Shown here: positions 33-19,953 of the stretch, in pieces
How the letters are laid out: each line of letters opens with the position of its first letter
How positions within the stretch are numbered: position 1 is the stretch's first letter
Assembly: GCA_943704525.1 (NCBI GenBank)
Contig: CALSCQ010001764.1
Span: forward strand, 1-25,715
Direction of reading: 5' to 3'
Length of the DNA stretch: 25,715 nucleotides
Origin: Pigoraptor vietnamica
Lineage: Eukaryota; Opisthokonta; Filasterea
Translations under genes and position numbers: made by a program
Notes under the pieces: generated by a model
Told to the model about the DNA's origin: nothing
What the model saw: only the letters and a program-made list of their open reading frames with translations
Databases searched by the model: none

Positions 33-2704
33 CTGATCAAAGGCGCCCACGGCGAGGACGGGCAGTGATGTGAATATCACGTTGTAAAACGTGATGAACC
101 ACGGGTCAAAAATCGTCTGCGCGCGGACAGTGAAGGCCCGGTGAGTACAGGGTTATAGAGATATAACTGGCCATGCTTTTCAAGCCACGTGTCGTGCTTG
201 TGGTGCACATCCGCCGTGTGTCGCGAGATACAGGACGTGGACAAAACGCATGGTGTGTACAGTGTTCTTTGCGATGTCGATGGAAAGAGGAGCGGCAGAG
301 TCACACACCTGCGCCGAGAAGCCCGAGAAGAAGGCAAACCAGAACTGGACGAGCGTGAACGCAAAGTTCTTGTAGAAGAAGTACTTGAGGAACTTGCACA
401 TCCGCATGTACGACCACCGGCCGTGCACGAGGAGGAGCCGCTCCAAAAACGTGCTCGATTGAAAGGCGAGGCGCCATAAAAGGTCAAGGAATTAACTGGG
501 AGGATGCAACAACACGCAAAACATGAACCAAGAATAGGCGCGCGTGCAACGGGAGCAACACAAAATCGGCATTTTAAAGTGGCGGATATCTAAATTGGGC
601 AAAGGCGTAGTCGCTCGCAAGCACGGCCTGGCGACCCTCATGTCCGCTGATGCCGACACCAATGTGCGCCGCCTGCGAGACCACGTGACGCGTTAGAAAG
701 CGCAATTGACACGCCTGTGTTCGTCCTACACACAGCAAACGCACGCATACGCACACACAGCCGACGACAGAGCTCACACTACAGCCCATACATCGGTTAC
801 CGTTCGCGACGCAGCGCACACCCACTTGTATCATGCTAACGTCGTTGGCGCCGTCGCCAATCGCGAGCGTGACGGCCTTCTTGTACACCTTGACGAGCTG
901 CACGACGAGCGCCTTCTGAAGGGGACTCACGCGGCAGCATATCACGCTCGCACACCCCGACGCGGCCTCCAGGAAGCGCTCCTGCAATTGCGGCTGGAGC
1001 GCAAAGTGGAGCGTGTTGCCGTCGATCACAAGCGCCTTCTCGACGCCGGTGGACGGGGATGTGCGCGTGGTGATCGTCTGCGGAGAGAGGGAAAAATGCG
1101 ATCAGACGAAGTACTGGACGGACGGAGCGCCAATGCCATTGACGAAAAAGAGAATTCAGGAGGAGTTGGTTAACGCAGATATTTGGGAGGAGTTGGTTAA
1201 CGCAGATATTTGGGTAGAGGCGAACATTAAACTCCCCATCGAGCGAGGGACATTTGAGGCGAGCAGGGGGGGGGGGGGGGGGGGGGGGGGGAGGGGGAGC
1301 GTGCGCAACGACAACCAGGGACGACGGGCCCACCTGTTCAATCTGCTGCGCGCACTCGTCGACCGACCCTGCGTTGATGATGCAGAGGTTCATGTCCTGT
1401 CGCAGCAGCCGCGCGGCAAAGCCAATGTTGATCGCCGTCTCCTGCTTGTCCCCCGTCAGCACCCAGATCTTGATCGCGGCGCGCGCGAGCGTCGCGATCG
1501 TGTTGGGCACGCCGACCTGAGGAGAGGGATGCATTCGTGTTACGACATGACGACGCAAGATACAATGCAGACTATTACCACGCCCACAAAGCGCGTGCAC
1601 ACATAGGCGACAATACGCGCGCACACACGCACCTGCAGCTTGTCTTCAATGGCGGTCGCGCCGAGCAGCACGAGGTCCTTCTCAATCAGTTCGGCGACTT
1701 CGTTGAGCTTTTCCTCGCGGTCGTGGAGTGCGACGGCCGCCGTGTGGTGCTTGTGGCTCCACTCGCTAAACTCGCTCTCCGTCAGTTCGCGGAAGGCGAG
1801 GCACAGCGTACGAAGGCCGTCCGACGCAAACTTCTCGAGGTGAAGCGTCGTCGTGTCGCACATGTCTTGCACGGTCCCCGCCCTCGCAAGCCGCTCGTAG
1901 ATCACAGAGTCCGCGCCCTTGCAGTACAGCCGGAGCTTGCCGTCCGGACACCGCAGAATGACCGACATGCGCTTGCGGTCGCTGTTAAACTCGAGGATGG
2001 TGAGCAGCTGGTACGTCTCGTGCGTTCCCATGACGTCAATCGTCACCGTCGTTGGCGAACGCGTCACGAACGTGAACCCAAAGTTGCGCGCGGCCTCGAC
2101 GAGGGCGGCCTCGTCAGGGCTCTGCGCCTTGTAGTCGAGCATGCCGCTCGGCAACTATGCCAGGGAAAAAAGGGAGAGGGACGAGAAAGTACGGATTAGA
2201 ACACACGGGCTCGGGCGTTGATTCCTAGCACGCTGTCAGCCCAACCAAACGGGCAGTACGGCGCGACTTGACAAGATGGCGCACCTTCTCAGCCACGACA
2301 GTGTGGCAGAGGGCGAGGAGCTTGAAAAACTCGCGGCACGCGATGCTTCCCCCGCGAATGTCTCGCACGAGCGATTCTGCGGAAAAATGGCAACCGACGC
2401 GTGAGTGCGCGTGTGTGCCAATCCGCGTAACTGTCACATGAGGTGTTGTTACAGCACCCGAGCGAAGGGCCCGTTGGGGCAGCGAGGACACTCACCGTCG
2501 TAGAAGACAAACTTTGGGTTGTGCTGCGGATTCCAGCCAAAGTCCACGCGCTTGAGTTCCGGCATGGCCGCCTTCTTGCCGTCACGCGACATGGCGCCCA
2601 TTTGAGCCTCGGTCATCCCTGTGAGCGAAACGATGGGGGACGATCAGCATCAATTGCAGACTAGAAACACGTGCACCCACATCGCACGCACACACACGCA
2701 CGCA

Positions 2705-4775: not shown

Positions 4776-4843
<68 letters not shown>

Positions 4844-5299: not shown

Positions 5300-5387
<88 letters not shown>

Positions 5388-11254: not shown

Positions 11255-11612
11255 CTCGAGAGAAGCGATTGGCGGGAGTTGTTAAAGCGACCTGCGGGAC
11301 AGGGTTGATGGAGGAGTGAAACCCCCACTATAAATGATGATTTCGCGGCCTCTCCCTGATTGGTCGGCCGAGTAACAAGCGGGGTGACACGCCTATTCAG
11401 AGCGCTTCTTGTTGGTCGCATTCGACGTGACATTGCGACTGTCGGCTGTTGGCAACGGAACACGGCGTGACGCGTGCTGCCGTGACGAGAAACGGCGGCA
11501 GTTCGGTTGACCCGCGCCGATTATATTAGATTGATGCTGCGGTTTTTTCACAGCACCTGCCGAAGAAAACAAGTCGCCCTTAGTCTTCGTTCACACACCA
11601 CAGCGAATTCAA
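11224..11612. other. Intergenic between uS11 and phosphodiesterase genes
   Basis: About 390 bp holding the uS11 3' end and the phosphodiesterase promoter. A TATAAAT at 11329-11335 is the only TATA-like sequence noticed, but it lies 280 bp before the start codon and may be chance. No AATAAA was seen. Confidence 0.4.
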
Positions 11613-13136
11613 ATGGCGCAGCGCATGATCTGCTCCCCGCTGACGGCTGCCGTCTGCATTCTTTTTGCTGCCTACTCGGCCGGCGCAAGTGCACCTGGAT
11701 CGCCCTCAGTGTCGACCGGTGTCCCGCTTGCGAAGCGCGCCATCATCTTCGCAATCGACGGCCTGGGGGCGTCCTACATTGACGACCCGGCAACGGCATT
11801 TCCTTCGCTATCGCAAACTTTTCGCGAGGGCGGGACGTACATCCAGTGGGTCCGATCGGCCGTGCCGTACATTTCCATACCCAGCTGGGTCGAGGTGCTG
11901 ACCAGCCGCCCGCCCCCTGCGACCGGGGTGACAAGCAATGGGCCGCCGTTCGTGCACAGCGACACGGAACACAGCAAGAAGACGTTTCCCACGCCGGGCC
12001 TGCGCTTTCCGTCTCTTCTGTGGCAGATGCGCAAGGAGCGACCGGAAGGAAAAATAATGGTGCTCTTCGAGCATGAGCACCTGTCGGCGTACCTCATCGA
12101 CGCCGAAGACGGCGCGGACGCGACGCCCCTCGGGCCGTACGCGAAGTTCTTCAACCCATGGGAGGCACCGCACTTCGTTTCGTTCGCGTGCTCAAGCCTC
12201 TTTTTTCGAATGAGCGCGGCGTTGTACAAGGCCGTCTGCTCCGACGTGGCAGAGACGGTCGTTCGCGCGTTCATCACTCACCATGGACTCCCCGACATCG
12301 CGCTCGTCCACATTGACGTCGTCGATAGCATGGGACACACTGCTGGATTCGGGTCGTCCGCGTATAGAGATGCCATGGTGTTCGCCGACGCATACATCGC
12401 CCGCGTGCTGCGCATCACGGCAGCCGAATCGCCCACCTTCGCCGAAGAAACGGTCGTCGTGATTGCGTCCGACCACGGGGGCATTGGCGACGGACACGGC
12501 GCTCTCGAGTACTCGGAAGTGAACGAAGGCGTTCCGCTCGTTATGTGGGGCCCGGGAGTGCCAGCCGGATGCACCGTCGCAGGAAAGTTGGACGTCACGC
12601 TGGCGGACATTGCGCCGACAGTCGCATCGCTGCTGGGACTCGGGCGGAATCCCCTTTGGATGGGGCGAAATTTGCTGCCGTGGCTGCGCAACACGTGCCC
12701 GACGGGCAATGCCTCTTCCTTTGTTCTGGAGAGCGCACGGAACGAATTGTCGCTTTGGAACGACTACTTTTCATCGACGCGTCCCCCAGGCGTGCGGCCA
12801 TTTCGCTGGACGAATCCCGTCAACACACGCAATGGGATAGTGGTACTCTTCGCGCTATTCGCAACGGTTGCCATCGCAGTCGCCGCGTTGGCGTGTCTGC
12901 TGGTTCGAAGGCTGCGTCGCACGCGCGCGTCGTTGTTGTGGTGGCGTGTTGACAATTGCGCGCTTGAGAGGGTCGTGTGCGTCTCGGGACAGGATGCCGC
13001 ACTTCTCAGTGAGAACGAACCGCCATGGATGGACGACGATGAATTTGAAGCGTACAAAAAATCGGCGTGCTTTTGGACGTTTACGCGGCGTCTGTTGGCG
13101 CGCACTGAACGGCGGCCCACCCTGCAGCTGCAGTGA
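11613..13136 (+). CDS. Membrane-anchored type I phosphodiesterase (alkaline phosphatase superfamily)
   Basis: Intronless gene for 507 residues. A signal peptide (about 1-27) and one membrane segment near 408-431, followed by a basic stop-transfer stretch and a cytosolic tail of about 75 residues, give a type I membrane protein with its enzyme domain in the ER lumen, an endocytic compartment or outside. The fold is the phosphodiesterase/nucleotide pyrophosphatase branch: AIDGLG (metal ligand Asp 49), VPYISIPSW with Ser 88 at the nucleophile position, HIDVVDSMGH (Asp 235 or 238, His 242), ASDHGG (Asp 287, His 288) and GHG (His 295) before VPLVMWGPGV. These residues fit a two-metal site. Likely substrates are phosphodiesters such as nucleotides or lipid head groups; GPI ethanolamine-phosphate transferases share the domain but have many membrane segments, absent here. 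The ATG at 11613 is the natural start, before the signal peptide. Confidence 0.88.
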   Translation: MAQRMICSPLTAAVCILFAAYSAGASAPGSPSVSTGVPLAKRAIIFAIDGLGASYIDDPATAFPSLSQTFREGGTYIQWVRSAVPYISIPSWVEVLTSRPPPATGVTSNGPPFVHSDTEHSKKTFPTPGLRFPSLLWQMRKERPEGKIMVLFEHEHLSAYLIDAEDGADATPLGPYAKFFNPWEAPHFVSFACSSLFFRMSAALYKAVCSDVAETVVRAFITHHGLPDIALVHIDVVDSMGHTAGFGSSAYRDAMVFADAYIARVLRITAAESPTFAEETVVVIASDHGGIGDGHGALEYSEVNEGVPLVMWGPGVPAGCTVAGKLDVTLADIAPTVASLLGLGRNPLWMGRNLLPWLRNTCPTGNASSFVLESARNELSLWNDYFSSTRPPGVRPFRWTNPVNTRNGIVVLFALFATVAIAVAALACLLVRRLRRTRASLLWWRVDNCALERVVCVSGQDAALLSENEPPWMDDDEFEAYKKSACFWTFTRRLLARTERRPTLQLQ

Positions 13137-17706: not shown

Positions 17707-19953
17707 TCAAAGCGCAAGCGACGCCGTGGACCACCGCGCCCTCTCGTGCTCAGAGACATACGAGCGCTGCAGCAGCGACTCGATCGCTCCCTTGACCTTC
17801 TCCGAGAACGCCTGCGCAGCGCGCGGCTCCTCAAAGACAATCGCCGAAACGTACGTCTCCGTTTCCACCGACGGCGACGAGGGGACGGCCTGTCCAGACG
17901 ACCCGCGCGCGCTTCCCTGCGAGCCCCTTGGGACGCTCGACGTGGACGAGCGCTGCATGCTTCCCCGCAGAGACTGAGAGTGACTGCCGGCGCCCACCCT
18001 TCGCACTTGCACCGTCGGCCGCTTCCCTTCCGCAACAAGGCCATTCCTCCGCACAAACTCGGAGCAAGCCGCGAGTTCCACCACGTTCAGCTGCACCGTC
18101 ACGGGGTGGTCCGGCAGAGGACGCGTCACGGTCGAAGAGAGCGCGTCGGGTAGCATGCCAACGAGGCGAATCGACAGCTCCGGGCGAATTTCCGTCGACG
18201 GCTTCGCGCCCTCCTTCCCCTTGCCGGCATCGGATTTCGGGTCGCGGTTGTCGAGTGCGTAACACACGATGCGCTCGGAGGACAGCATCACCCACACGCC
18301 CTCCGCCGAAGACACCATCCAGTGCATGACGTAACGTTCGGAGGGCTCGTAATCGCTCATGCGCGCGAGCAGCCCGGCACCGACGGCCATCGCCTTCGAG
18401 TAGCGCACGAGCGCGAGGTCCGGCCCTATCGAGCGCGGCGGTCGCACGCGGTCAAATAGGGGGCGGCTGTTGAGTCCCGCCGTGTCGCGAATGGCGGCCG
18501 TCGTGTCCGAAGCGAGGTCGAGAATGCCGGCGACCGGCTTGGCGACGACGCCCACAAGGCCCTTGCCCACCCCCTTGAGAAAGCCTCCCACGCCCTCCCT
18601 CGACATTCCCTGGACGGGCTGCGTCACAATGCCCGAGATGCCCCCGACAAACCCCTTCCCGACGCCGACGACGCCGCTCACGGCGCGGTCGATGCCCTCC
18701 TTCTTCTCCCTACGCGTCTTTTCGCGGTCGCGCGCGTAGTCGGCGTCGCCCGCAAGCGTGACGAGACCGCTCGAGAGGGTCCCCGTGATGCGCGACGTCG
18801 AGTCTGCAAGGCCGTGCGTGAGGTTCTGGAGGAGCGACGACGTTCCTTTCTGCAGACCGCCGACGAAATCCTTGGGGCTGGTCACGAGACCCTGCGCTGG
18901 CTCGTAGAAGAAGTCCTTGAAGCCCGTGCTGAGATTGTTAAAGATGCCCAGCGGATTGCCCAGGAAGTCGGCCGATCCGACGATACGGTAGGCCTGTCGG
19001 AGGAGCTCCTGCTTGTACCACGACTTGAGCGTCTCGACAAGCGACTCGCGCGTGGCAAACAGGTGCTGCGACGCCACACCAAGTTAGGTCAGCGCGTTGT
19101 GGTTGCATATCATAGATGATACGCGACACTAGGCAAGTGCGTACAAGTGCTTCAAGGGCGCACACACGTGCTGCATTCCCCGTGCACATCGATTGAGAAC
19201 GACAGGGAGGCTGTAGTGGGAAGTCACAATACGCACCTCCAGCACGCAGGCGTTGAGGCGAATGGACGTTGGGCCGACGTTGACAAAGGGGACGAAGCGC
19301 CGCCTGAAACAGCACAGCAGTCCGTAACATCAGTAACACTCCTCGGCACTTGCGCACAAGCAGCATGCAATGTGTACGTACACGAGCGCCGCGCGAGTCT
19401 AGAGTTCGCACCCGCCCCATTCTCAAATCAAACCCACCGCGTCGCCTCAAGGTCTTCTGGGATTTCCGTCGCAGCCTCGACAATGACGCTTATCTTTATC
19501 GGCTGAAGAATGGCGACCTCAAAGTACATGCGATCGCCGCCTGGTGGGACGACGATGTGCGAGCGAAGCGAGTACCAGGGTAGAAATGCACACATATGGG
19601 TGTTAGCTTAATAATGGACGGCTCCTGCAAAGGCAGATACGGAGAGGAAAGGGAGGCAGTCGCAGCGACAGTCGGGCATACAGGGCCCAGCTGGTAACAG
19701 CGACAGAGCGCACGTGACGCACCCTTTGACTCGAGGGAGATTGCGTCCCTTGGGTCGTCGACAGAGCGGTTGAACTCGGCCTGCGCATAAGATATTTAGA
19801 TACCCACCAAAGGCACAGAACACCAGCCAAAGACGACGACAGCTACACGCACACGCACGCACGCACAGACGCACACACAGACGCACACACAGACGCACAC
19901 ACAGATGCGCACACAGACGCACAGACGCACAGACGCACAGACGCACAGACGCA

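Follow-up and report, generated by a model that had tools for sequence, protein, structure and literature searches.

A minor spliceosome with a putative lineage-specific 5' splice-site code in Pigoraptor vietnamica

An AT-AC intron in a P4-ATPase gene

The window, by which we mean the whole stretch of DNA analysed (25,715 nucleotides from Pigoraptor vietnamica), starts within a P4-ATPase gene, and its last bases form a CA repeat; both ends are possible assembly break points. Long CA/GA microsatellites lie at about 2705-2761, 4777-4840 and 5310-5385 and in the last ~100 bases before 25715. On the plus strand at 11535-13136 there is a 533-residue open frame with no evident intron in an intron-rich neighbourhood, which by eye is type I phosphodiesterase-like with a membrane segment at its C-terminus. 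The features of the P4-ATPase gene considered here are the following.

826..1077, minus strand: preceding exon of the same P4-ATPase gene, included in the homology test
590..672, minus strand: exon upstream of the intron, 28 protein letters, part of the homology test
589..451, minus strand: predicted U12-type AT-AC intron of the P4-ATPase gene, 139 nt, phase 2, with a gapless junction against Phospholipid-transporting ATPase IC
582..589, minus strand: 5' splice site ATATCCGC (usual form ATATCCTT), with GC at +7/+8; RTATCCGC is recurrent across the genome
491..483, minus strand: TTCCTTGAC as U12-type branch site, its branch A (484) lying 33 nt ahead of the intron end
451..452, minus strand: 3' splice site AC; an alternative in-frame AG ends at 454
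309..450, minus strand: exon downstream of the intron, 47 protein letters, part of the homology test

The original prediction placed an AT-AC minor-spliceosome intron at 451..589, arguing that the frame after AQF meets a stop with no GT in between and that the join restores an ATP8B-type sequence without a gap, and all of this was borne out. The unspliced minus-strand frame of the P4-ATPase gene reads AQFRYPPL and then a stop, and no GT lies ahead of that stop. Removal of 589..451, whose borders are AG/ATATCCGCC at the 5' end and CGAGCAC/GTTTTTGG at the 3' end (minus strand), gives an open in-frame join of 590 to 450, and over residues 25-159 of the resulting 159-residue peptide (135 aligned residues) there is a gapless match to Phospholipid-transporting ATPase IC (E=8e-66; PDB 8ox4, which we take to be human ATP8B1). 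The alternative AT-AG end, 3 nt upstream of the AC end, is also in frame, but leaves one residue more.

The signals within the intron point the same way. ATATCC at 589..584 agrees with the U12-type rule RTATCC for +1 to +6, and a perfect U12-type branch site (TTCCTTRAC) lies at 491..483, near the 3' end. In the whole window RTATCC is followed by TTCCTTRAC at a distance of 40-200 nt a single time, whereas 300 shuffles preserving base composition alone averaged 0.013 such pairs. Because this junction homology is found in a genome that also carries genes for U12, U6atac and U4atac (see below), the reading of 589..451 as an AT-AC U12-type intron in an ATP8B-like P4-ATPase gene is supported, as far as sequence comparison can tell.

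The 5' splice site of this intron is a derived form, a point that goes beyond the remarks of the original prediction. According to PMC2846911, U12 introns follow the 5' rule RTATCCTT, in which either C, but not both, may be replaced by T. At +7/+8 the intron 589..451 has GC, where the strict rule has TT, and we class it as a variant U12-type intron for this reason.

Minor introns with GC at +7/+8 across the genome

Related introns were sought across the genome to which the window belongs (1395 contigs, 32.5 Mb in total). The pattern TATCNGC N20-80 TTCCTTRAC gave 12 matches genome-wide, against 4 for a reversed-pattern control; 11 of the 12 read TATCCGC and 11 of the 12 have A or G at +1. With TATCCGC N80-140 TTCCTTRAC there were 21 matches, the 589..451 intron among them, against 1 for the reversed control, and +1 is A or G in all 21. 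In the two GC patterns pooled, +1 is A or G in 32 of 33 cases (14 A, 18 G). The exception, a TATCNGC N20-80 match with C at +1 (L014), was dropped, so that 32 introns fit RTATC(C/T)GC...TTCCTTRAC, including those of PTEN, LSG1, AP-1 mu and IFT144; 11 of these came from the pattern that fixes GC at +7/+8 and leaves +6 free, and 21 from the one that fixes both. The statement that U12 introns are rare but present in this organism therefore stands, with dozens genome-wide by strict patterns. The canonical pattern TATCCTT N20-50 TTCCTTRAC had no match, and neither had its control, which is a weak result since a gap so short occurs in only 2 of the 12 TATCNGC introns.

The positions +7/+8 were left free in one search only, which makes it the fairer comparison of the two forms; it returned 29 candidates genome-wide against 3 for the reversed-pattern control, all 29 with A or G at +1. 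GC stands at +7/+8 in 21 of them, TT in 1 and other dinucleotides in 7 (CC in 1, GG in 0). In the remaining fetched DNA, GC follows TATCC at 19 of 123 places, which gives p of about 1e-11 for 21 of 29. Several of the 8 non-GC rows, all with A or G at +1, resemble true minor introns, namely L115 (ATATCCTTT) by frame and, by homology, L119 (FKBP) and L122 (glycyl-tRNA synthetase). Alongside the GC form, the usual form of the site and others thus seem to persist in this genome. The predicted minor 5' splice sites of this lineage are mostly RTATCCGC, not RTATCCTT.

In several genes the homology runs across the junction. In PTEN the joined exons match residues 1-55 of a solved structure gaplessly, the intron falling after the first base of the Tyr27 codon. 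This is presumably the same spot as that of human PTEN intron 1, which we take to be U12-type. PMC3728624 itself states only that PTEN contains a minor intron. The joined exons of AP-1 mu and of IFT144/WDR19 each match a solved structure gaplessly, and those of LSG1, whose intron has AT-AC ends, match one protein gaplessly. For the ATPase and IFT144 pieces the best solved-structure matches are, we presume, animal proteins, and the presence of an IFT144 gene points to a flagellated cell.

Ten pieces were compared with Pfam. The RasGEF and FKBP_C matches cross their junctions, those of MMR_HSR1 (LSG1) and Myb are confined to one side, the Foie-gras_1 match piece (L034) ends at the junction and is uninformative on the join, and the WD-repeat piece (L035) has only weak matches under the cut-offs. 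Four of the ten (PTEN, AP-1 mu, IFT144 and glycyl-tRNA synthetase) had no Pfam match, and all four matched solved structures. As to the non-GC introns, the solved-structure match of glycyl-tRNA synthetase runs across the junction with an offset of one residue there, and FKBP is also matched across its junction, with a one-residue offset nearby. For many candidates the 3' end is not fixable from the frame alone, and two (L011 and L116) have no open join within 50 nt.

The distance from branch to intron end could be compared for eight introns, each with its two exons matching one protein: 33 nt in the window, 33 in FKBP, 31 in IFT144, 28 in PTEN, 23 in glycyl-tRNA synthetase, 21 in AP-1 mu, 15 in RasGEF and 10 in LSG1. 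The 33 nt of the window intron, which had been called unusually long, lie at the top of a range of 10-33 nt and are shared with FKBP, so that they are not exceptional in this genome.

Minor spliceosomal RNAs and the altered U6atac

The intron had been taken to imply the presence of U11, U12, U4atac and U6atac RNAs, and a search of the window's own genome agreed for the last three, with no U11 found. At least one gene each of U12 (73.8 bits), U6atac (81.4) and U4atac (64) scored over its Rfam cut-off, these counts being lower bounds since each search scored part of the first-look candidates. The three genes look intact. U12 agrees with the Rfam consensus over its branch-binding stretch, and a run of 17 successive pairs is possible between U4atac and U6atac. 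Upstream of all three genes lies GTCCCAYAAG, ending 57-62 nt before each, and the same element precedes the U1, U2 and U5 genes (L001, L002, L003, L075, L079 and L087 for U12, U6atac, U4atac, U2, U5 and U1), so the RNAs of both spliceosomes seem to use one promoter type in this genome.

Other promoter-bearing stretches were noticed as well. Two short T-terminated genes, L042 (G000:C284, near 19,150-19,296, minus strand) and L048 (G000:C1110, near 24,097, minus strand), carry the snRNA promoter element and a TATATAAGG box and share GGTCCGG...GGGTTATC...CTCGACC. We take them to be Y-RNA / nematode sbRNA-like; L042 passes Rfam RF01656 (41.4 bits, cut-off 38) and L048 fails. Another RNA candidate with the promoter (L058) has a sub-threshold match to the Aspergillus sRNA Afu_182 (36 bits, cut-off 65). 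Four stretches that follow an exact promoter element (L062, L065, L069 and L076) look by eye like small-RNA genes, L069 having CATATAAGG and a T run and L062 and L076 box C/D-like motifs; with E up to 1 allowed, Rfam matched none of them apart from L065, at a chance level of 0.96.

U11 was sought in several ways. Rfam RF00548 found no U11 genome-wide, and it had no match in the control genomes either. A search for the promoter element with an Sm site found only the U4atac gene. The promoter element with GCGG gave 15 rows at 14 sites, while the control gave 10; by eye none of the 15 resembles U11 and two are Y-RNA-like. The Rfam scan of these covered 13 of the 15 loci, at the gathering score only. 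The single match for promoter element, GCGG and Sm site together (L037) is repetitive-looking by eye and was rejected as U11. Exact promoter-element sites number 78 genome-wide, against 49 for the control; 61 of the 78 correspond to L054-L114, and 60 of these 61, compared with Rfam under an E limit of 1 or 0.5, included U1, U2 and U5 and no U11, U4 or U6. The genome assembly may be partial, since the contigs met were all at least 10 kb.

The sole U6atac gene found reads GUGUUGUAUGA-GCC-GAGAGAAGG, where the Rfam consensus has GUGUUGUAUGA-AAG-GAGAGAAGG, a change at nt 12-14; as 46 of 652 first-look candidates were scored, "sole" is subject to a second copy. These nucleotides belong to the region through which U6atac binds the 5' splice site and are printed in capitals by Rfam, which marks them as conserved. 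The gene looks otherwise intact, with its promoter element, a T run at the end and complementarity to U4atac. In the human numbering, the splice-site partner of U6atac GG14/15 is CC5/6 (PMC4980772), and nt 12-14 therefore face +8, +7 and +6. Two new pairs become possible, G7 with C13 and C8 with G12 of U6atac, and among the 16 dinucleotides at +7/+8 GC alone gives two Watson-Crick pairs with C13 and G12.

The match is incomplete at +6, where C6 of the splice site faces C14, a puzzling mismatch. In the TATCNGC search, the sole one with +6 free, this position is C in 11 of 12 matches, T in 1 and never G, which would pair with C14. Moreover, the free duplexes with the organism's own U6atac (AUAUCCGCC at -2.5 and AUAUCCUUU at -3.4 kcal/mol) give the new splice site no advantage, and the introns do not use the perfect partner of this U6atac, AUAUCGGCU (-9.7). 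The compensation of the GC splice site by U6atac would thus be partial. Splice sites and U6atac probably changed together.

A proposed recoding of the minor 5' splice site

The minor 5' splice site is among the tightest signals in splicing and is read by U11 and then by U6atac. It is very probable that 589..451 is an AT-AC U12-type intron removed by a minor spliceosome for which this genome carries RNA genes, and that it belongs to a lineage with mostly RTATCCGC at this site and with a U6atac differing at nt 12-14; that it is removed in the cell we infer from sequence. As for how the recoding arose, we favour, with a probability of roughly 0.6, a natural shift of dozens of introns from RTATCCTT to RTATCCGC, accompanied by the change of U6atac nt 12-14 from AAG to GCC and by a U11 that would read CCGC. 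Pairs G7-C13 and C8-G12 would replace U7-A13 and U8-A12. The retained C6 facing C14 suggests a second reader of the splice site, which in the known mechanism is U11, and we predict a U11 with a matching GCGG, its gene so far unlocated, that would read C5C6G7C8. The branch reader, U12, would be unchanged and one 5' reader changed. The simplest history would be that of an ancestral minor system in which old introns such as that of PTEN stayed in place while the 5' code moved with U6atac and presumably with U11.

Three other accounts were weighed. That 589..451 is an ordinary U2-type intron placed wrongly, its AT-AC ends accidental, is suggested by the in-frame AG ending at 454 and by GC at +7/+8, and seems very improbable: there is no GT ahead of the stop, a GC donor at CC/GCCACT would add residues and is weak by consensus, and the perfect U12 branch site, the minor snRNA genes and the gapless AT-AC join all speak for the minor spliceosome. 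Slightly less credible still is the idea that GC at +7/+8 merely reflects a G+C-rich genome. G+C indeed reaches 60% across the first 15 loci fetched, and +9 and +10 lean to C, yet base composition alone would hardly yield GC with so little CC or GG in the free search, and GC is infrequent after TATCC elsewhere.

A more serious account accepts the U12 introns and their shifted 5' site and ascribes the U6atac change to unrelated drift or an assembly error, so that U11 alone tracks the site. The C6-C14 opposition, the duplex energies and the unseen U11 fit it well enough to make it a minority view worth keeping. Against it, the changes in U6atac fall exactly at the nucleotides facing +6 to +8, two of the three pair in Watson-Crick fashion with the new site, and the promoter element, T run and U4atac complementarity of the gene are those of an intact copy. 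For these reasons we consider it unlikely and prefer the joint recoding of splice site and U6atac.

The A/G TATCC start, TTCCTTRAC, the AC or AG ends and the minor snRNA genes are shared with known U12-type introns of the AT-AC and GT-AG kinds (PMC2846911), from which most candidates here differ by GC instead of TT at +7/+8. The nearest parallel is an engineered suppressor (PMC4980772), in which the P120 5' splice site CC5/6GG was combined with U11 GG6/7CC and U6atac GG14/15CC; the same helix is concerned and both splice site and U6atac depart from the usual, but here the change is natural, genome-wide and at +7/+8 rather than at +5/+6, U6atac has the further change G14C, to which nothing at +6 corresponds, and U11 was not found. 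In Acanthamoeba castellanii a C-rich stretch follows the 5' consensus of U12 introns, likewise a lineage-specific feature adjoining the minor 5' splice site; there it is described as lying downstream of the consensus (PMC2846911), whereas in the present genome the alteration is within the consensus and U6atac is different as well. Physarum is another lineage-specific departure of the minor system, with more than 20,000 minor introns reported in a 2021 study (via the citing papers PMC8329584 and PMC10639083), against dozens here by strict patterns. Among the literature matches listed, most subscription papers being outside their scope, neither a GC-form minor 5' splice site nor such a U6atac appeared in the portions of text available.

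Taken at this strength, the data suggest that the minor spliceosome of this lineage has a 5' splice-site code of its own. That site and U6atac both differ in one lineage suggests that the minor 5' splice site can be recoded, and the PTEN intron, presumably at the same spot as a human minor intron, suggests that old introns were recoded in place, not newly gained. In such lineages, programs that look for minor introns by RTATCCTT may miss part of them. If true, the recoding would be nature's version of the laboratory suppressor experiments, with the C-C mismatch at +6 tolerated as a relic or an intermediate, and this lineage would offer a natural test of which splice-site pairs matter.
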